Assembly: GCA_902606585.1 (NCBI GenBank) | Contig: CACLGX010000015.1 | Location: forward strand, 1 to 36,631 | Source: Paracoccaceae bacterium | GTDB lineage: Bacteria; Pseudomonadota; Alphaproteobacteria; Rhodobacterales; Rhodobacteraceae | Length of the DNA stretch: 36,631 nt | Reading direction: 5' to 3' | Part shown: positions 26,832 through 36,631 of the stretch, piece by piece | How positions within the stretch are numbered: position 1 is the first letter of the stretch | Layout: each line of letters begins with the position of its first letter | Notes under the pieces: model-generated | What the model was told of the DNA's origin: nothing | The model's input: only the letters and a program-made list of their open reading frames with translations | Database searches by the model: none | Translations under genes and position numbers: made by a program

Positions 26832-29309
26832 ATGCCTACTCCAGAGGAAACAAGAGACCGAATTAGAGCGATGCGGGAACGCATTTTTAATGAGACGAAT
26901 AACGAGTCTTTTGAAAATGATGTTAACGAAACTCCTAAAGATAATGAGTTGGCTGAAAAAGAAGTCAACGTCGCGCAGAGGACTAAAGATCCATCTAAAG
27001 AAAATGATATTAAAAATATATCTCAGCAGGATGAGTTTGTTGAAAAAGAAGCTAACGTTGTGCGGGAGAATGATGCGCCACCTAGCGACATAAATACAAT
27101 CAAATCTCTTGAGGAGAGTTTTTCAGAAAAGTTGCTGCAAAACGATGATAAAATATCATTATTAAGTGCCGATATGCAAAAACAGCTGTCTGAAATAGCT
27201 TTAGACTTTGAAGGTAAAAGTAACAACTTAGAAACGACAATTCTCAACAAACTCGAGGACAATTTCACAGAAGGCAACTCTAAAATTTATGGGATAGAGA
27301 TCCTCGTAAATGAAAGTATTGTAAATTTATCTAATGCAAATCAAGCTTTGAAAAATGAACTGGACGAACTCAATCGTTCTATTCAAACAGACATTAGCTC
27401 CTTTGTAGAAAGATTTTCTTTAGAAAATCAAAAGATTGAGACAAATCTTAAAACCAGTGCTGAAAAGTTAACAATGTTCGAAAACCTTGTCGCGGAAAGA
27501 CAGAACTCTTTAGAGCAAAGTTTTTCAGAAAAGTTACGCCAAAACGATGATGGAATAGCAATATTAGGCGCTGATACGCAAAAACAGCTTTCCGAAATAG
27601 CTGCCGACTTTGCAAGTAAAAGTAAAAATTTAGAGACAAAAATTTTAAATAAACTGGAAGATACTTCCTTAGAAAATAATTCTAAAATTAATGGTGTGGA
27701 GCACCTTATCAACGATAGTATCCAAAGTTCATCTCAAGCAAATAAAAGTCTAAAAGAGCGCCTGGAAGAGCTCAATCGTTCCTTTCAATTAGAAATCAGC
27801 TCAATTACAGAAAGGTTTTCTTCCGAAAATCAGAAAGTTGAGACAGAGCTTAAAAATAATGCTGACAAGTTAATTTTCTTCGAAAAGGCAGTTGACGAGA
27901 GACAGAATTCTCTAGAAGAGAACTTTTATGAAAAGTTGCAAAAAAATGGCGATAGAATATCATTACTAAGTGCCGAAACACAGAGACAGATCTCCGATAT
28001 AACTCGTGAATTTGCTAATAAAAGCAGTTCTTTAGAGGCAACGATGCTGGATAAAATCGAGGATACTTTCACGGAAAGCAATTCTAAGATTAGTGGTGTG
28101 GAGCAGCTGATAAATGACACTATTATAAGTTCATCTCAAGAGAATAAAGCTTTAAAAGAGCGCTTGGACGAGCTCAATCGCTCTCTTCAATTAGACATCG
28201 GCTCCGTGGTAAAGAAGTTCGCTTCTGAAACTCAAGAAATTGGATCAGAACTAAAAAAAATTGCTGATAATTTAACTGTCTTCGAGAATTCTGTATACGA
28301 TCGACAGAATTCTCTAGAGGAGAGTTTTTTAGAAAAGTTGCAAAAAGTTGCAAAAAGATTTTCTTCTGCAAATCAAAAGATTGAAACAGAACTAAAAAAC
28401 AGTGCTGATAAGTTAACTGTCTTCGAAAATTCTGTTTACAGCCGACAGAATTCTCTAGAAGAGAGTTTTTTAGAAAAGTTGCAACAAAACGATGATAGAC
28501 TATCATTATTAAGCGCAGATACGCAAAAAAAGCTATCTGAAATGGTACTCGGCTTTGAAAGCAAAAATAGCAATTTAGAGACGTCCATGCTTGATAAATA
28601 TGAGTATATTTCCTTCCATTTAAAAAAAGTAGAGGAACAAATTGAAAATCAGATGGGTGACCTAAGCAAATCACTCCAAAAGTTTGTACTTTCTATAACT
28701 GACAGTCAGGATCAGAAGATTGACAATATTAATCAAGAGGTGAAAGGATACTACAAAAATTTACAATCTGATTTTGGGGGAATAAAAGCTCTAGTTTCGA
28801 AACAAAAGACAACGCTCGAAAATACCATGTCCGCTTACAAACTAGAGTCTAGCAAAGAGATTGATGTTCAAGAGAAAAAAATCCAAAAAAGTATTAAATC
28901 ACTAAAACAAGAAATATTTGAACACCAAAGAGACATGAAAACTAACTTTGAAAAAAATATTAAAGACAGAGAACTTAAAACGAATGATTATTTCTCCAAG
29001 AGAGTTATAGAAGTCCGTGATTCACTATCGGAGGAAGTTAAGTCGTTATCGGGAGAACTAGCTAGTTTAAAAGATGTAATAAAAAATAAGCATTCTGAAT
29101 TGACCAAACATATTGATAATAATTTATCTATTATTTCGAAAACGGTGGAAAAAGATCGTGAATATTTCAATAATAGATTTGAAAAAGTATCTGATAGTAT
29201 CCAATCGGTAGAATCCATGATTGTTAAAGAAGAAGATTTAACCGAGTTATTTCAAAACTATACGTTAAATGTAAATATTTCGGATGATGTAAAACCTTCA
29301 AAAAGGTAA
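26832..29309 (+). CDS. large repetitive coiled-coil protein
   Basis: An 825-residue protein, highly charged, almost without Gly, Pro and aromatic residues over long stretches, and without signal peptide or membrane helix, so a long cytoplasmic coiled coil is expected. Residues 1-90 are an acidic, low-complexity head with a degenerate internal repeat (EKEVNVAQR; EKEANVVRE). From residue 92, copies beginning SLE(E/Q)(S/N)F start at 92, 226, 360 and 494, spaced by exactly 134 residues (402 bp). The fourth copy is only 47 residues long: its SLEESFLEKLQK runs directly into VAKRFSSANQKIETELK, an in-frame loss of 87 residues. A last partial copy starts at 541. Residues about 590-825 are unrepeated coiled coil. 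It could be a filament or spacer (structural, chromosome or surface-scaffold role); family unknown. Confidence 0.85.
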   Translation: MPTPEETRDRIRAMRERIFNETNNESFENDVNETPKDNELAEKEVNVAQRTKDPSKENDIKNISQQDEFVEKEANVVRENDAPPSDINTIKSLEESFSEKLLQNDDKISLLSADMQKQLSEIALDFEGKSNNLETTILNKLEDNFTEGNSKIYGIEILVNESIVNLSNANQALKNELDELNRSIQTDISSFVERFSLENQKIETNLKTSAEKLTMFENLVAERQNSLEQSFSEKLRQNDDGIAILGADTQKQLSEIAADFASKSKNLETKILNKLEDTSLENNSKINGVEHLINDSIQSSSQANKSLKERLEELNRSFQLEISSITERFSSENQKVETELKNNADKLIFFEKAVDERQNSLEENFYEKLQKNGDRISLLSAETQRQISDITREFANKSSSLEATMLDKIEDTFTESNSKISGVEQLINDTIISSSQENKALKERLDELNRSLQLDIGSVVKKFASETQEIGSELKKIADNLTVFENSVYDRQNSLEESFLEKLQKVAKRFSSANQKIETELKNSADKLTVFENSVYSRQNSLEESFLEKLQQNDDRLSLLSADTQKKLSEMVLGFESKNSNLETSMLDKYEYISFHLKKVEEQIENQMGDLSKSLQKFVLSITDSQDQKIDNINQEVKGYYKNLQSDFGGIKALVSKQKTTLENTMSAYKLESSKEIDVQEKKIQKSIKSLKQEIFEHQRDMKTNFEKNIKDRELKTNDYFSKRVIEVRDSLSEEVKSLSGELASLKDVIKNKHSELTKHIDNNLSIISKTVEKDREYFNNRFEKVSDSIQSVESMIVKEEDLTELFQNYTLNVNISDDVKPSKR
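27105..28600 (+). repeat. tandem 402-bp coding repeats within the coiled-coil gene
   Basis: Repeat starts at about 27105, 27507, 27909, 28311 (shortened to 141 bp) and 28452 (partial). Each unit contains the ordered blocks SLEESF-EKL-QND, ISLLSADTQKQLSEI, SNLETTxLxKLED, a stretch with NSKIxGVE, LKERLDELNRSxQLDI, and RFSSENQKIETELK...ADKLTVFEN, ending in RQN. Confidence 0.85.
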
Positions 29310-29986: not shown

Positions 29987-30274
29987 CTATTGGTTATATG
30001 AAGCTAAAACCAACCCCGAACATGAGTCAGTTCTGCTTTCTCCGTAAAACTGGAGCATATGTTCTACTGTATCCAGCCAATTAACTCCGTCTACCTCGTC
30101 ATCACCTGTTTTATCTATTTCATCATACTCCATAATGCTGATATATTCGTTTTCGCTAATGGACACTAAACGCATAGACAAAGAGTTTGAGTAATCATAA
30201 TCATTTATGGCTTTAATAAAGTCGTCTTCAAACCCGTCTTTAAGCTTATATCTTACAACTGTTATTATATTCAT
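29987..30274 (-). CDS. small alpha+beta barrel (ABM-like) protein
   Basis: A 95-residue cytoplasmic protein beginning MNIITVVRYKLKDGFEDDFI, the beta-strand followed by amphipathic helix typical of dimeric alpha+beta barrel proteins (antibiotic biosynthesis monooxygenase-like, YdhR-like). A second strand reads ISIMEYDEID and a helix NWLDTVEHMLQFY. An AGGA site lies seven bases before the ATG. It is the same broad fold class as several genes in 33.8-36.6 kb, though on the opposite strand. Function unknown; the fold is used for oxidation, binding or dismutation of small molecules. Confidence 0.65.
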   Translation of the reverse strand: MNIITVVRYKLKDGFEDDFIKAINDYDYSNSLSMRLVSISENEYISIMEYDEIDKTGDDEVDGVNWLDTVEHMLQFYGESRTDSCSGLVLASYNQ

Positions 30275-31927: not shown

Positions 31928-32112
31928 TGGATCAATATACAAAAATAATGATAACAATAATAACTGTCTGTGTAGTTGTTGTTACACTTATTATAGTTGG
32001 TTCTGTCATTGTCCATGAACACGATCACCAGGAAGACAACGACCATGAATACCACGAGTATATGGAGCACGTCATTGAAACACTTGAGAGAATAGAAGAC
32101 CGGCTAGAGTAA
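31927..32112 (+). CDS. 61-residue single-span membrane protein with His/Asp/Glu-rich tail
   Basis: Residues about 7-27 (IMITIITVCVVVVTLIIVG) form a membrane helix. The tail that follows is packed with metal-binding side chains (HEHDHQEDNDHEYHEYMEH) and ends in a charged helix (IETLERIEDRLE). The start overlaps the previous stop by one base. A role in metal binding or sensing at the membrane is possible but is only an inference from composition. It was not recognised as a known family. Confidence 0.65.
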   Translation: MDQYTKIMITIITVCVVVVTLIIVGSVIVHEHDHQEDNDHEYHEYMEHVIETLERIEDRLE

Positions 32113-32161
32113 TTCATTACTCTTTTTGTAAAGTTATAGTGAATAGACTTGGCACAAATTC

Positions 32162-32398
32162 ATGAAACACATCCTACTCTACCTATCGTTTATTTTACGT
32201 GCTACTGCTGCTAGTGCTGAGATTAAAGCATGCGAGATTCTAGGAATAGGAAAAGTAATTGATCAGTTTGACCAACTATCAGAACGAAACGGCATTTTAA
32301 TACTTATCCATAAAATTTATCTCGATTATCAAGGCCAACTTTTTGAGTGCATAATAAATAAAACTGAAGGCAATATAACATGTGTTGAGAATGATTGA
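32162..32398 (+). CDS. small exported protein, unknown
   Basis: A 78-residue protein with a signal peptide (KHILLYLSFILRATAASA, cleavage before EIKACEI). The mature part is about 59 residues with three Cys. Its last eight bases overlap the start of the next small gene (ATG 32391). No Shine-Dalgarno is clear. Unknown function. Confidence 0.5.
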   Translation: MKHILLYLSFILRATAASAEIKACEILGIGKVIDQFDQLSERNGILILIHKIYLDYQGQLFECIINKTEGNITCVEND

Positions 32399-32528
32399 TT
32401 GGCATAAAAGACATTTAGAGTTTTGGAAGTCCAAACTAGGTGTCAGTGATTATGGTATGCTTTGGATTGCTTTCATAGAGGGCATAATTTTTGGTCTAAT
32501 ATTGTATCACTTTGGAATAGCTACTTAA
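32391..32528 (+). CDS. 45-residue single-span membrane protein
   Basis: The product begins MIDWHKRHLEFWKSKLGVSD, a basic and aromatic amphipathic helix, then has a membrane helix (MLWIAFIEGIIFGLILYHF). It overlaps the 3' end of the preceding exported-protein gene in another frame and ends one base before the ATG of the first NTF2-like gene, so it is probably coupled to both. The chain of overlaps and the coherent protein design support a real gene despite its size. Confidence 0.55.
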   Translation: MIDWHKRHLEFWKSKLGVSDYGMLWIAFIEGIIFGLILYHFGIAT

Positions 32529-32529
32529 G

Positions 32530-32859
32530 ATGATTTATGAAAAATTTATGAATACATGGAATACTCAAGATATTGCAGGATATTTTTCGTGTCTGCATGA
32601 TGATTATCAGATGGTTTTCCACTCTACTGGCAAAACACTCAGTTTAGAAGATTTTGACATGGATCAGCTGGCTAGGTGGATGATCTCAACTAAACGTGAA
32701 AGTGCAAGATGTATTTACGAAAATGACGATATTTTAGTTGAACACAGAATTAGCACTTACACGGATGGTGAAAGAAGTGCGACTATGTTGGTACATCTTA
32801 AAAAAGATGGGCTTCTTTGGCGAACAGAAACTGGTGTCACACCTCTCACTGAAAATTAA
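32530..32859 (+). CDS. NTF2/SnoaL-like small protein, paralog 1
   Basis: A 109-residue cytoplasmic protein of the cone-shaped NTF2-like fold: helix at the start (IYEKFMNTWNTQDIAGYF), strand with DDYQMVFHSTGK, a second helix LARWMISTKRES, then strands RCIYENDDILVEH (RCIYEN at 60-65) and MLVHLKKDGLLWRTETG (Trp97). The motif RCIYEN and the ending DGLLWRTETG(V/S)TP are shared with the next gene at the same residue numbers, so the two are tandem duplicates. NTF2-like proteins bind or isomerise small molecules (SnoaL, ketosteroid isomerase) or serve as binding modules; no catalytic set can be assigned here. It begins one base after the small membrane protein gene. Confidence 0.72.
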   Translation: MIYEKFMNTWNTQDIAGYFSCLHDDYQMVFHSTGKTLSLEDFDMDQLARWMISTKRESARCIYENDDILVEHRISTYTDGERSATMLVHLKKDGLLWRTETGVTPLTEN

Positions 32860-32868
32860 AAACAACCA

Positions 32869-32931
32869 ATGAAACGCTTAATTCTCACCATAATACTCAT
32901 TTTTGGAGCTACTGATAATGAGCTTATATAA
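32869..32931 (+). CDS. possible 20-residue hydrophobic leader peptide or signal-peptide remnant
   Basis: ATG 32869 opens MKRLILTIILIFGATDNELI, a signal-peptide-like sequence that ends at TAA 32929-32931, overlapping the next NTF2-like gene's start (32918) in another frame. It may be a coupled leader or the 5' remnant of an exported-protein gene cut short when the NTF2-like gene was duplicated into it. Confidence 0.3.
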   Translation: MKRLILTIILIFGATDNELI

Positions 32932-33259
32932 AAAATACCAAGAGGCTTGGGATGATCAAGATATAGGTACAATGCTTGATTTATATCATCCCGACTATAA
33001 GAGGGTTTTCCATGCAAACGGTACTGAACAAGGCCTGGATGATCTTGAGCCAATAATGTCACGCTGGTTGATAGGAACAAAACGTTACAAAAGAAGGTGC
33101 ATCTATGAAAATAAGGATATCTTTGTTGAACATTTTGTAGCCGACTTTCAAGATGGAACAACAGAAGCTGTACTAACCGTACATCTCCTTAAAGATGGCC
33201 TACTATGGCGAACAGAAACAGGATCAACACCTATCAAAAAAAGTAAGGCAAAGGCATGA
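32918..33259 (+). CDS. NTF2/SnoaL-like small protein, paralog 2
   Basis: A 113-residue protein. The start is set at ATG 32918 (GGAG nine bases upstream), which aligns the N-terminus (MSLYKKYQEAWDDQDIGTM) with paralog 1; a TTG at 32903 would add five residues. RCIYEN is again at 60-65 and the conserved Trp at 97 (LLKDGLLWRTETGSTP). The C-terminus has a short basic tail (KKSKAKA). Identity with paralog 1 is high in the second half and lower in helix 1. It is convergent with a small gene on the other strand. Ligand and role unknown. Confidence 0.75.
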   Translation: MSLYKKYQEAWDDQDIGTMLDLYHPDYKRVFHANGTEQGLDDLEPIMSRWLIGTKRYKRRCIYENKDIFVEHFVADFQDGTTEAVLTVHLLKDGLLWRTETGSTPIKKSKAKA

Positions 33260-33289
33260 AATAAATTCTACTCACCTTATTTCGTATCT

Positions 33290-33481
33290 TCAGATAGACT
33301 TAGCTCGATGAAAAGCTTTTAATATATCGTTATAACTTATCTCATCTATGTCACCTTGCTTTTCCGCTGACAGTATTGATAATTCTTCTTCCAACCTACC
33401 AGTTTGGCTTCTAGAAAGCTTCGATAAGTTTGCTTGACTTATCGTATTAGCAACTTTTTCATATAATCTGTGACCAAGCAT
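33290..33481 (-). CDS. small helical hypothetical protein
   Basis: A 63-residue, mostly helical protein (LYEKVANTISQANLSKLS, LEEELSILSAEKQGDID, ILKAFHRAKSI) without membrane segment. AAGGAG lies six bases before the ATG on the minus strand, a strong site. Just upstream is the 13-base palindrome TAACACTGTGTTA (33522-33534), a possible regulator site. It is convergent with NTF2-like paralog 2. Family not recognised. Confidence 0.6.
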   Translation of the reverse strand: MLGHRLYEKVANTISQANLSKLSRSQTGRLEEELSILSAEKQGDIDEISYNDILKAFHRAKSI

Positions 33482-33554
33482 TTCGTTCTCCTTTTGAAAA
33501 GTTGAACGGGACAGAGCTTTTTAACACTGTGTTACTGTCTCGCTTAGAAACTAC

Positions 33555-33689
33555 TCAATCTTTTGTTTTAAAATTGTTTTTATTTTCTTGAAAATGAAGG
33601 TAGCATTTTCTTGGATCAGTCAACGATATTTTAATAACGTCTCCGATTTGCCAATTAATTTTTGGCACATAGACTTCACCATTTTTTTA
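33555..33689 (-). pseudogene. gene remnant between the small helical gene and the barrel-protein gene
   Basis: A minus-strand frame reads NGEVYVPKINWQIGDVIKIS then LTDPRKCYLHFQENKNN and ends at TGA 33555-33557; upstream it is cut by a stop at a run of seven A bases, beyond which another frame reads SIIRFFLKK. A homopolymer frameshift in a small gene is the simplest reading. A start at the internal GTG would leave 38 residues. The remaining bases of the gap 33482-33839 hold a palindrome near 33522 and the upstream element at 33758. Confidence 0.35.
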
Positions 33690-33757
33690 AGAAGAATCGA
33701 ATTATTGAACTACTCACTAATTAGGCAAAATTTTTGAGAACTGTGAACTGACTTAAC

Positions 33758-33793
33758 GTCAAACCAACATTTAATATCTTTGTTGCAAATTTT
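33758..33793 (+). promoter_or_regulatory. duplicated upstream element, copy A
   Basis: This stretch closely matches 34882-34914: about 28 of 35 positions are the same, with shared cores AATATCTT and GTT.CAA. It lies about 46 bases before the ATG at 33840; a shorter shared block (AATRCTCAA then GGAGT) continues to the start codon. It was probably copied together with the gene leader and may contain a promoter or a regulator site. Confidence 0.5.
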
Positions 33794-33839
33794 CATTAAC
33801 TTAAATGCTCAATTTAAAGTTTATTAAAAGGAGTTTAGA

Positions 33840-34460
33840 ATGTTTGTCTCAAGAAGAATAAGTACCCCTATTGTTGGAAAACGTGAAATGGCCCTGAGTA
33901 GAATGAGAACTGCTGCAGAAATAATCTCAAGCTGTGGCGCTACTGACGTTGAAATTACACAGGTGGGTGGTGGTTTTGGCGCTGGCACCTTCCATCTCTA
34001 TGCGTATTTTCAATCTATGGAGCATAGCATGGAAGTTGCAGATAATCTCAGAAATGATACTGCATGGGCGAAACTTGCGGAAGAACGTGAGTTAACCCCA
34101 TCTGCTCATGTTAAAGGTCCAGAACTTGCACGTATACTTGCAGGAGAGCCCGACCCGAATGATACTGCAGCAATGGTGCGTGAGTACGTGATACCAAGAG
34201 GAAATTTGAGTAAAGCTGCTGATATGGTTCCAAGTATTCAAGAAATGTTAGAGGGTCATAAAATAAATATTACAATGTGGGTTCCAGTAATTGCAGAGGA
34301 CATGAAAAGACTTTTAGTTGTTTATTCTGCACCAGATTTAAAAACACTCGGAAAAGGCACAGATGAAGTGGGGATGACTGAAAAGTTTCAGAAAATGCTT
34401 GTTGAGGCATCCAAACTTGGCACTTTGGACCGCTCATTTGGCATGGTGCAAGTAGATTAA
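33840..34460 (+). CDS. two-domain alpha+beta barrel (NIPSNAP/ABM-like) protein
   Basis: A 206-residue cytoplasmic protein that reads as two related domains of about 100 residues. Domain 1 has a strand, a long helix (GKREMALSRMRTAAEIISS), VEITQVGGGFGAGTFHLYA and FQSMEHSMEVADNL; domain 2 repeats this order with EYVIPRGNLSKAADM, INITMWVPVIAEDMKRLLVV and a C-terminal helix. Such tandem ferredoxin-like domains form an alpha+beta barrel. AAGGAG stands eight bases before the ATG. Members of this fold include monooxygenases and NIPSNAP-like proteins; no catalytic residues can be assigned. It is preceded by upstream element copy A. Confidence 0.68.
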   Translation: MFVSRRISTPIVGKREMALSRMRTAAEIISSCGATDVEITQVGGGFGAGTFHLYAYFQSMEHSMEVADNLRNDTAWAKLAEERELTPSAHVKGPELARILAGEPDPNDTAAMVREYVIPRGNLSKAADMVPSIQEMLEGHKINITMWVPVIAEDMKRLLVVYSAPDLKTLGKGTDEVGMTEKFQKMLVEASKLGTLDRSFGMVQVD

Positions 34461-34474
34461 CAAAACTGTGCTGG

Positions 34475-34494
34475 GCCAACAATTTAACGTTGGC
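34475..34494. terminator. weak stem-loop after the two-domain barrel gene
   Basis: GCCAAC (34475-34480) pairs with GTTGGC (34489-34494) over an eight-base loop, 15 bases after the stop. There is no T run, so termination is uncertain. Confidence 0.3.
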
Positions 34495-34609
34495 ACTGTA
34501 TTAGAAGTTAGTCAATATTAAAGCACCACATCATTGGAATACCACTTCATAGTATTAACGACACCGAGGTGACAGGTGAATAGATACTACTAACCTAGGC
34601 ATACTAGGA

Positions 34610-34843
34610 TTGACGAACTTCCCTGCCCCCAAGGATAAATCAGTATCCTTTCCAGGACCTGAGATGGAAGATGCTATGGATGCCTCTAAAGCCGCTAGCA
34701 GCGTTCTCATAGCCGTCAGTGAGGGCGAACTTCTTTCGATTAAGGAACACACATGTGCCATGGGGCTTATAGATAGCTTTAGACGCATTCTGGAGCTAAC
34801 TGAGATAGAAGGAAGGCTTCAAGTCTTGGAAACTGCCTATTAA
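34610..34843 (+). CDS. short ORF of foreign base composition, possible phage/plasmid gene remnant
   Basis: A 77-residue frame starting at TTG with no good ribosome site. By count, 34621-34840 is 48% G+C against roughly one-third in the flanks, so it looks like recently arrived DNA. The product has a Pro/Lys start, then a helical part (ASKAASSVLIAVSEGELLSI) and an ending SFRRILELTEIEGRLQVLE that resembles the C-terminal helices of some short phage or plasmid proteins; this is from memory and not firm. An intact N-terminus is not evident, so a truncated gene is likely. It interrupts the array of small barrel and NTF2-like genes. Confidence 0.4.
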   Translation: MTNFPAPKDKSVSFPGPEMEDAMDASKAASSVLIAVSEGELLSIKEHTCAMGLIDSFRRILELTEIEGRLQVLETAY

Positions 34844-34881
34844 ATAAGCAAAAATTAATATTTTCAGTGAAGTTACCAAAA

Positions 34882-34914
34882 GTCAGACCGATATTAATAT
34901 CTTCGTTACAATTT
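34882..34914 (+). promoter_or_regulatory. duplicated upstream element, copy B
   Basis: Counterpart of 33758-33793, ending about 40 bases before the ATG at 34955. The match continues in the leader (AATACTCAAGGGAGT here, AATGCTCAA...GGAGT in copy A), although the downstream genes encode different folds. Confidence 0.5.
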
Positions 34915-34954
34915 CTTGATAGTTTCAAACTGTAATACTCAAGGGAGTCATAAA

Positions 34955-35251
34955 ATGGCTATGCTATTTGAAAAGATGGTAAAAGCGCAAGATGAAGCTG
35001 ACGTAAATTTATGGCGTGAATGTTTACATGATGATTGGGAATTTTTGATGCATTCATCAGGTAAAGTTCACCGCAAAGGCAGCGCCAAACCAGAAGAATG
35101 GGCAAAACTAATTAAGTCCGTAACACGCGAACACCAGCGTTGTATTTATGAAAATGACGAAGTCTTGGTAATACATTCTTTTAACACTTACGCATCAGGC
35201 GACAAGGAAGCTTTGTTAATGGTTCATAAAAAGAAAGATGGACTGTTTTAG
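34955..35251 (+). CDS. NTF2/SnoaL-like small protein, paralog 3, with premature TAG
   Basis: The start is ATG 34955 (AGGGAG seven bases upstream); an ATA-rich upstream in-frame start at 34916 is rejected. The 98-residue product has the family pattern: helix MLFEKMVKAQDEADVNLW, LHDDWEFLMHSSGK, RCIYENDEVLVIH (RCIYEN at 62-67) and MVHKKKDGLF. It then meets TAG (35249-35251) exactly where paralogs 1 and 2 have Trp97 (TGG), a single-base difference. The frame continues after the stop as RSKSGATPIK to TAA 35282-35284, matching RTETGVTP of the paralogs. So the gene lost 11 residues by one mutation, or the TAG is sometimes read through. The product may still fold, missing the last strand. Confidence 0.7.
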   Translation: MAMLFEKMVKAQDEADVNLWRECLHDDWEFLMHSSGKVHRKGSAKPEEWAKLIKSVTREHQRCIYENDEVLVIHSFNTYASGDKEALLMVHKKKDGLF

Positions 35252-35310
35252 AGAAGTAAGTCTGGAGCAACACCAATAAAATAAATAATTCTTACTGAAA
35301 GGAGAATATT

Positions 35311-35604
35311 ATGCATATTCAAGTCATTAATTTTGGCATCAATGTTTCGCACGAAGATTTTTTATCTGGAGCTACGGAATTAGCTCCTAATTTTGCCTCT
35401 CTTCCTGGGCTGGTCAGTAAGCATTGGCTGGGCGATGAAGATAACAAAGTCTATGGAGGTGTATACATTTGGGAAAGCAAAGAACATTGCGACGCTTATA
35501 AAGCTGGCGAAATTTTCGAAATGGTGATGACAAGTGAAAATCATGTCAATCCAACCTCAAAGGATTTTGGCGTTCTAGAAGGACCAACAAAGGTGACAAC
35601 ATAG
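35311..35604 (+). CDS. YdhR-like putative monooxygenase (dimeric alpha+beta barrel)
   Basis: A 97-residue protein with the YdhR pattern: first strand and helix (MHIQVINFGINVSHEDFLSG), PGLVSKHWLGDED, YGGVYIWESKEHCDAY, and a C-terminal strand with FGVLEGPT. YdhR-family proteins are small dimers related to antibiotic biosynthesis monooxygenases; the reaction is not known for most. AAAGGAG lies seven bases before the ATG. It follows paralog 3 by 26 bases counted from the second stop, and is probably in the same transcript. Confidence 0.75.
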   Translation: MHIQVINFGINVSHEDFLSGATELAPNFASLPGLVSKHWLGDEDNKVYGGVYIWESKEHCDAYKAGEIFEMVMTSENHVNPTSKDFGVLEGPTKVTT

Positions 35605-35652
35605 CCTAAATGCAACAACAATTTCATTAATTAATATGAAAAAGGATTCAAA

Positions 35653-35967
35653 ATGACTATAATAGTAAAGAGTTCTATCAAAATAAATAAAGGTTTTGAT
35701 ACTTGGGCTGCCATGGTCAAATCACAAGATGAAAGATTGGGTAGTATGGGGGTAAAGTTTCTATTCGCTGGAACAGAAAAGGATGACCCTACTCAACTTC
35801 ACGCAATAATGATGTTTCCAAGTATGGAAGTGCTTCAGGCATTTGGCGCTGACGAAGAGTTGACAGAAATAAGGAGGCAAGGTGGTGCTGAAATAGAGAC
35901 TGGCGTCATGACGCCAATATCTGAAGATTACTTTACCAATTATCCAGACGCTTTCATCAAACACTAA
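35653..35967 (+). CDS. DUF3764-like small alpha+beta barrel protein
   Basis: A 104-residue protein. It opens with a strand and helix (TIIVKSSIKINKGFDTWAAM), followed by GVKFLFAGTEKDDPTQLHAI, where the KDDP motif and its position match what I recall of the DUF3764 family, then MMFPSMEVLQAFGADEELTE and a C-terminal strand. The fold should be a ferredoxin-like half barrel that dimerises. AAGGA stands seven bases before the ATG. It is 48 bases from the YdhR-like gene; the leader contains CAACAATTTCATTAA, similar to part of the duplicated upstream element. Function unknown. Confidence 0.65.
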   Translation: MTIIVKSSIKINKGFDTWAAMVKSQDERLGSMGVKFLFAGTEKDDPTQLHAIMMFPSMEVLQAFGADEELTEIRRQGGAEIETGVMTPISEDYFTNYPDAFIKH

Positions 35968-36005
35968 AAGATTTTAAGGAAAATAAAATTATACAAGCAA
36001 AAACT

Positions 36006-36314
36006 GTGTTAGAAGCATGGGGTAAAACTCTTGAGACTAAGGATTTTAGCCATCTTGCTCAATATCTTTCAGAAGATTTTCAGGTTGAAGATACCTTAGG
36101 TGAACTGGATAATTTAGAAAATACCAAAAGTTGGTGTGTTGCAGGTGGATTAAGAATTAATAACTTTAAAACAATTAGAGAAAACGCAAATTACATCGTT
36201 GCAACGCATGATGTTGTCCAAGAAGGAAAGCCAAAATCTAATGTTCTAGTTTACGCTGAACAAAGCAGTGGAAAGTTTACTTACTGGAAAATTCAACGTA
36301 CTTTTGAAGTTTAA
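36006..36314 (+). CDS. NTF2/SnoaL-like small protein, paralog 4 (diverged)
   Basis: From GTG 36006 the product has 102 residues: MLEAWGKTLETKDFSHLAQY (helix 1), LSEDFQVEDTLGE, then FKTIRENANYIVATHDV, which aligns with RCIYENDDILVEH of the paralogs, and a final strand FTYWKIQRTFEV with a Trp near the expected position. The GTG has no proper ribosome site. AAGGA at 35976-35980 is spaced seven bases from an in-frame ATT at 35988, which would add six residues (IIQAKT) and restore a full first helix, so a rare ATT start is possible. Same strand and order as the other array genes. Confidence 0.65.
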   Translation: MLEAWGKTLETKDFSHLAQYLSEDFQVEDTLGELDNLENTKSWCVAGGLRINNFKTIRENANYIVATHDVVQEGKPKSNVLVYAEQSSGKFTYWKIQRTFEV

Positions 36315-36372
36315 CAAGGTTTAAGCATTTTATAGCGCGAATTTTATATCTATCTTAAAAAGGAGCTTATAG

Positions 36373-36631
36373 ATGAATATGTGCATTCATGGAACAATAG
36401 CCACTGGTGTAGAAACGTTACGAGCCAGAGTTGAGCATAACATGGCACGAGGAGCTAGTGAGTTTTGCTCTGAGTGGATGCTAACAGATGCTGGCAACAA
36501 TAAATTTATCTGGCTTGGCAATATCACAGATATGGATGGTATGGGCGCTTTTTTAAGTGCTGAGGAAGAAGTGCAATGGGATAAAGATAACGGTTGTGTT
36601 TATAAACTCTACGCGATGGAAGAAATATCCG
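36373..36631 (+). CDS. small alpha+beta barrel-like protein, truncated by window edge
   Basis: ATG 36373 with AGGAG seven bases upstream; the frame is open to the right edge (86 codons visible). The sequence starts MNMCIHGTIATGVETLRARV, then SEFCSEWMLTDAGNNKFIWL, ITDMDGMGAFLSAEEEVQWD and CVYKLYAMEEIS: strand, helix, two strands and helix, as in dimeric alpha+beta barrel proteins. It continues the array of small one-domain genes. The family cannot be named. Confidence 0.6.
   Translation, partial: MNMCIHGTIATGVETLRARVEHNMARGASEFCSEWMLTDAGNNKFIWLGNITDMDGMGAFLSAEEEVQWDKDNGCVYKLYAMEEIS

Follow-up and report, generated by a model that had tools for sequence, protein, structure and literature searches.

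A variable array of small NTF2-like and ferredoxin-like barrel genes behind a repeated leader in a Rhodobacteraceae genus

The window analysed here, 36,631 bp in length, is the whole of contig C15 (CACLGX010000015.1) of a Paracoccaceae bacterium whose assembly totals 1.81 Mb and is 73% complete. Its right end carries an array of eight small genes, labelled N1, N2, B1, N3, B2, B3, N4 and B4 along the window, together with a leader repeat immediately 5' of N3. The array is real, and it is not a fixed machine, its gene content differing between genomes of the genus, 16 of which were compared (genus genomes are given below by G numbers and their contigs by C numbers). All eight open reading frames (ORFs) proposed in an initial annotation are present, all on the plus strand and with the starts listed below. 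As that annotation also held, the array runs past the right edge: the contig stops inside B4, which has 86 residues here vs 87 in its G129 ortholog and is still open at the contig end.

Gene content of the array

The genes and associated features are as follows.

32530..32859, plus strand: N1, NTF2/SnoaL-like, RCIYEN family, 109 amino acids, intact
32918..33259, plus strand: N2, NTF2/SnoaL-like, RCIYEN family, 113 amino acids
33710..33806, plus strand: weak leader copy 5' of B1, matching the leader model at E 6.5e-7 and not among the copies from which the model was built
33840..34460, plus strand: B1, 206 amino acids, weak similarity to DUF6854, putative barrel fold
34622..34837, plus strand: remnant of a DUF5681 gene, 3' half (longer open copies lie in G000:C6 and G131:C13)
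34832..34956, plus strand: leader repeat, immediately 5' of N3, carrying ATATCTTCGTTACAA 44 bp upstream of the ATG
34955..35251, plus strand: N3, NTF2/SnoaL-like, RCIYEN family, ended by an in-frame TAG, the frame continuing to 35281
35311..35604, plus strand: B2, YdhR family, 97 amino acids
35653..35967, plus strand: B3, DUF3764 family, 104 amino acids
36006..36314, plus strand: N4, distant NTF2-like protein, with ATT at the ortholog start codon (position 35988)
36373..36631, plus strand: B4, ferredoxin-like, no Pfam family, ending with the contig

The folds first proposed for these proteins are largely borne out by Pfam, structure models, Foldseek and hhalign, with B1 the uncertain case. N1, N2 and N3 match SnoaL_2 at E values of 5e-5 to 6e-4 (best score 24.2 bits, below the Pfam gathering cut-off of 27). 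For N2, a structure model based on an alignment of 52 sequences reaches a mean predicted local distance difference test (pLDDT) score of 91, shows a cone-like alpha+beta fold around a curved sheet and retrieves SnoaL/ketosteroid-isomerase-type structures in Foldseek, including a SnoaL-like protein at E 4e-7 with a template modelling (TM) score of 0.69; N1 and the intact relatives of N3 are assigned to the NTF2/SnoaL-like superfamily by alignment. Three of the four NTF2 paralogs originally counted are members of the RCIYEN family, and the fourth, N4, is a distant NTF2-like relative by hhalign (probability 95%). Six residues (H32, Y63, E64, H72, E100 and G102) are invariant in all 52 aligned RCIYEN-family sequences, which points to a conserved polar pocket.

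On the barrel side, B2 belongs to Pfam YdhR (PF08803; E 9e-15, 54.9 bits vs a cut-off of 27.1) and B3 to DUF3764 (PF12594; E 5e-9, 36.7 bits vs a cut-off of 24). No Pfam family was found for B4; its model (pLDDT 96) has a beta-alpha-beta-beta-alpha-beta ferredoxin-like fold, and its four Foldseek matches below E 0.001 are all ABM-type (DR_2100, SnoaB; E 1e-4 to 7e-4, TM 0.51-0.65), followed by other ferredoxin-like folds. B1 matches DUF6854 at E 0.001, below the cut-off. The likeness of N2 and B4 to SnoaL-like/ketosteroid-isomerase NTF2 proteins and ABM-type barrels is one of fold, by model and Foldseek; by sequence, a PDB search with B1, B2, B4 and the RCIYEN family gave no close relative, the best match of the RCIYEN family being a designed NTF2 protein (E 0.0017). 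Proteins of these folds include cofactor-free oxygenases, isomerases and hydrolases.

At the position of the TAG in N3, Trp is encoded by four intact copies from three genomes, and past the TAG a residue is changed at a Glu that is invariant in alignment A4; N4 has ATT where G129 and G127 have ATG. Two of the eight genes are therefore probably impaired in this genome. In G128, N4 lacks its N-terminus and N1 survives as a fragment only. The DGL(L/F) ending that the initial annotation saw as shared by three NTF2 copies is not shared: N1 and N2 continue into WRTETG(V/S)TP, and only N3 ends there, because of the damage to the gene. AGGAG-like ribosome sites, noted at first for nearly all the genes, precede about six of the eight starts and are absent at 32530 and 36006. 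Six array genes are under purifying selection, with ratios of nonsynonymous to synonymous substitution (dN/dS, NG86 method) of 0.10-0.40: 0.10 for B2, 0.17 for B3, 0.40 for N4, 0.11 for B4 and 0.13 for N2, all vs G129, and 0.16 for B1 vs G128.

The leader repeat and the genes behind it

The DNA upstream of N3 (34466-34955) has copies 72-86% identical at other loci of the genus, the loci compared having been selected for array-family genes. A sequence-only model of the ~125-bp leader, built from nine copies and applied at E <= 0.01, places it at at least 20 positions in 7 of the 16 genus genomes, eight of them in the genome of the window; the count is a lower bound because 150 of the 477-925 candidates per genome were scored. 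Fourteen of the 20 leaders lie within ~60 bp of a member of six small-gene families from the barrel or NTF2 side, B1 counted: GYD (three, one truncated), DUF3303 (three), DUF3764 or B3-like (three), N3 (two), B1 (two) and DUF1330 (one). Of the three DUF3764-type genes, two are no more than B3-like, and the one at C27:10324 of the window's own genome has no Pfam DUF3764 match. The remaining leaders precede GNAT genes (three, one a remnant and two followed by an N4-like gene), a DSBA gene (one) or a contig end (one), and a final match at E 0.0096 may be due to chance. Eleven of the 20 places were no part of the set that built the model, and five of these 11 precede barrel-type genes, B1 again counted.

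Within the window and 39 loci, ATATCTTYGTTRCAA occurs 20 times when up to two mismatches are allowed. Eleven occurrences stand before small genes of the kinds just listed, eight of them at 43-53 bp from the start and the eleventh 5' of a GYD remnant, and nine lie inside other ORFs. The 3' end of DUF5681 adjoins the leader at 8 of the 20 places. A structured RNA leader was considered and rejected: the RNAalifold consensus is weak (-2.2 kcal/mol), and Rfam gave 0 matches in window positions 32000-36631.

Gene order and exchange between genomes

Order is partly conserved inside the genus. G129:C20 keeps the window block in full, as GYD-N3-B2-B3-N4-B4, followed 3' of B4 by a cupin-like gene (assigned by eye, opposite strand), a distant B3 relative and N2. 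G131:C13 reads N3-B2-B3 and then other small genes; G128:C3 reads GYD-N3-B2, then a different small gene replacing B3 and a cut N4; and G127:C6 reads leader-B3-N4. Neither the window nor G131 has GYD ahead of N3. The dense mixture of families remarked on in the initial annotation exceeds chance: across the 16 genomes, 53 of the 146 matches to six families have a match of a different family no more than 2 kb away, vs a mean of 2.7 and a maximum of 10 in 500 random placements made on unbroken genomes of equal size. When G000, G127, G128, G129 and G131 are excluded, 24 of 85 matches are clustered vs 1.4 at random; the counts are not independent events, since the genomes are related. An assembly artefact as the origin of the array was rejected, the separate assemblies of two relatives being in agreement.

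Three comparisons bear on how genes come to lie behind the leader. A site beside a transporter gene (AEC-type by eye) is shared by G127:C6, G131:C83 and G000:C3 over 971-1090 bp at ~91% identity, and the cargo behind the leader there is B3-N4, a B3-like gene and a truncated GYD, respectively; in G000:C3 the flank is separated from the leader by a DUF5681 remnant. A 3134-bp block containing two YHYH genes, a leader, DUF3303 and the stretch that follows is 97.2% identical between G128:C3, where it lies inside the array, and G000:C6, where it lies elsewhere; between G128 and the window, identity over the six longest colinear stretches is 81-94%. On the left, the block ends inside DUF5681 in both genomes; on the right, in G128, it ends at the beginning of a DUF5681 remnant. 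The block is missing from the window array, where just one repeat lies that corresponds to both G128 copies: its left part continues the G128 B1 side and its right part matches the G128 GYD leader, as would be expected after recombination between direct repeats. Finally, a 420-bp unit of leader and B3-like ORF, ending at the stop codon, is 90% identical between G000:C27 and G131:C83, with unlike immediate flanks on both sides.

The families themselves are spread more widely. RCIYEN-family genes occur at 38 places in 15 of the 16 genus genomes, and relatives of B3 (at E 1e-4) in all 16. In a sample of 121 genomes used for the order, which includes the genome of the window, the RCIYEN family is found in four genomes, that genome among them, and B1 and the DUF3764 family in one each, again that genome. 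A further sign of exchange comes from N2: six other genus genomes carry it at 85-94% identity and in several gene contexts, between which homology extends from ~40 bp upstream of the start to the stop only, a pattern to which fast divergence of intergenic DNA may add. A 42-residue stretch at G000:C53:2181-2309, 76% identical to N2, in frame with other sequence and near a glnB-like gene (by eye), is a decayed N2 copy. The 5.5-kb contig G130:C37 (locus L053) carries two RCIYEN genes on opposite strands (713-1036 and 1512-1841) beside a B3 relative.

A scan of named genomes with the RCIYEN family confirmed 215 of 382 stretches, and the best 80 of the 215 were retained; these come mainly from marine Alphaproteobacteria, with 17 archaeal titles. 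The leader model, run over 76 of the 80 loci (seven of the same genus), gave L071, a same-genus locus, as its sole match. An NTF2 gene could be placed in 14 of the 17 archaeal loci, and in none of these 14 does a member of the DUF3764 or GYD cluster lie within 1.5 kb; among the 69 loci without a match to a genus genome, it was placed in 63, of which six have such a neighbour. Outside the genus, the DUF3764 cluster counts five members within 1.5 kb and the same number at a distance of at least 3 kb, which supports no strong claim of neighbourhood. The initial annotation had held that its reading would fail if homologs were scattered singly with no order conserved; this is largely the situation outside the genus and is not the situation within it.

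Other neighbours recur outside the genus within 1.5 kb of RCIYEN genes about as often as the DUF3764- and GYD-cluster genes do, namely a peroxiredoxin-like cluster at seven loci (L087, L089, L098, L117, L123, L133 and L134) and a cupin-like cluster at six (L079, L086, L097, L113, L132 and L138), both assigned by eye. The family members in Marine Group II-type archaea (L074, L075, L115, L127 and others) are 38-49% identical to N2, suggesting a transfer between domains that would have involved marine Alphaproteobacteria and these archaea. Inside the genus, 20-kb stretches of G121:C4 (L211), G133:C7 (L213) and G130:C12 (L220) are rich in tiny genes: Pfam identifies ABM, SCO4226-like and MAPEG members, and inspection by eye adds GYD-, DUF3764- and cupin-like ones. 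Several such regions seem to exist in the genus. Elsewhere in the window, positions 26832-29309 encode an 825-residue protein with only weak Pfam matches; a 402-bp unit recurs there in tandem (3.1 copies), and the protein aligns with its G128 copy in several registers. A 95-residue gene upstream of the array (29987-30274, minus strand) has no Pfam match over the cut-off, is possibly barrel-type by eye and has an 80% identical relative in G131:C9.

A flexible region and its alternatives

The reading that we favor, at a probability of roughly 0.55, treats the array as a single state of a flexible genome region carried by a Rhodobacteraceae genus of the surface ocean. This region would be a reservoir, reshuffled by recombination, of small-molecule proteins that work alone and that stand behind copies of a common promoter. 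N3-B2-B3-N4-B4 would form one transcription unit (the gaps in the compact part of the array are 29-58 bp), read from the leader as a putative promoter and possibly with a GYD gene formerly at its head, like that of G129. The leader, partly with a DUF5681 tail upstream, would have been duplicated around the genome, and the copies of leader and DUF5681 would supply the homology by which ordinary homologous recombination brings different small genes behind the same promoter; blocks between copies would be gained or lost, and single genes gained, lost or replaced. The proteins would be independent, single-domain members of the ferredoxin-like barrel and NTF2/SnoaL-like folds that probably form homodimers, each with a small-molecule pocket of its own. 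Their targets would most likely be small hydrophobic or reactive, perhaps xenobiotic-like, molecules, handled by each protein separately. In support of this reading stand the leader copies ahead of varied gene families, the common flank with differing cargo, the nearly identical block at two places bounded by DUF5681 repeats, the partly kept gene order, the clustering of the families and the purifying selection.

Several observations weigh against this reading. The leader is without a match in 9 of the 16 genomes, including all three that are at least 90% complete (150 candidates were scored in each, and misses are possible), a DUF5681 gene or remnant stands beside it at only the eight places given above, and four leaders stand before GNAT or DSBA genes. 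Sigma-70-like sites are not commoner than in shuffles, and no recombinase was noticed, although no genome-wide search for one was made. Beside the 420-bp unit in G131:C83 lies a 608-bp stretch that recurs in G000:C27 at 98% identity and a distance of 3.4 kb, so this unit reflects a local rearrangement, not two independent places. The right end of the 3134-bp block in G000:C6 meets an N4-like gene, not DUF5681, and the barrel families may be distantly related at the level of fold.

An alternative is ordinary lineage-specific gene expansion, with random duplication and movement of small genes in a variable region, the leader hitch-hiking a few times by segmental duplication and no special link between leader and cargo. 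Such plain duplication is the serious rival, and we regard it as possible though doubtful. The restriction of the leader to 7 of the 16 genomes and to none of the three most complete, and its place before GNAT and DSBA genes, are in its favor, as are the occurrence of array families where no leader was found and the finding that B4 copies in two contexts share little outside the ORF. It accounts less well for the range of six small-gene families found behind one leader, where break points fall at the leader or the start codon, and for one chromosomal site with three different cargoes.

The initial annotation had suggested a ligand-handling or hetero-oligomer system, in which the NTF2 and barrel proteins would work jointly. 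A fixed assembly of this kind is quite improbable because its members are lost, replaced or damaged singly between genomes: B3 is replaced in G128, GYD is missing from the window and G131, N3 and N4 are damaged in the window, and N4 is cut in G128. The identical order of N3-B2-B3-N4-B4 in G129 speaks for it, as do relatives of N4 and B4 lying within 2 kb of each other in G128:C4, G130, G132, G133 and G134.

It is very improbable that the array is cargo of a prophage or other mobile element. DUF5681 does have phage-like kin, in phrog_9747 (E 7e-5) and in a single phage record (46%), the region is of low GC (guanine plus cytosine) content, and three IMG/VR contigs encode an RCIYEN-family relative; however, N2 is encoded in no phage or plasmid record searched, array DNA has no match in phages, the six array proteins scanned hit no PHROG at E 0.01, and the window has no tRNA and no integrase or transposase among the 31 ORFs scanned. 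An integron-type gene cassette array can be set aside almost entirely: small single ORFs do stand in a row in one direction and encode proteins with likely small-molecule pockets, much as the cassette proteins studied in PMC3548836 are small, multimeric and often equipped with pockets, but the gaps of 29-58 bp leave little room for attC, the two R''/R' site pairs found (shuffle mean 0.5, maximum 5) both use one site inside B4, the shared repeat here is leader/DUF5681 DNA, and no attC was found between the genes of the array, IntI not having been searched for.

The flexible-region reading has closer parallels. As described in PMC9944727, horizontal regulatory transfer of intergenic regions involves a regulatory region that recombines independently of the adjoining genes, and the leader would do likewise. 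The case described there has two alternative regions at one place, whereas here one region stands before different genes in several copies per genome, and its regulatory role is putative. Tycheposons and flexible genomic islands (PMC10872708) resemble the array in carrying variable cargo in streamlined aquatic bacteria. In the window, which ends inside the array, no tRNA was found, and no tyrosine recombinase among the 31 scanned ORFs; the units here are one to few genes. Among the papers listed in literature searches, none was recognized as dealing with the array, with such leader sharing or with DUF3764 function.

A bolder form of the flexible-region reading, which we consider unlikely, is a recombinase-free cassette system in which DUF5681 and leader serve as a reusable promoter socket, single small-molecule genes being exchanged behind the leader by recombination. 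Barrels, NTF2-like proteins and at times GNAT or DSBA genes would be swapped in, so that a plankton genus would command a co-regulated and adaptable repertoire of tiny enzymes for detoxification or salvage, and the DUF5681 protein, whose GRPKG motif is putatively DNA-binding-like, might itself promote the exchange. If the flexible-region reading is right, it reveals a checkable route by which ocean bacteria with streamlined genomes could exchange small genes singly under a constant control signal, with neither integrons nor visible mobile elements involved. The leader groups uncharacterized families (GYD, DUF3303, DUF3764-type, DUF1330, B1 and N3), and learning what triggers it would inform on all the families that stand behind it.

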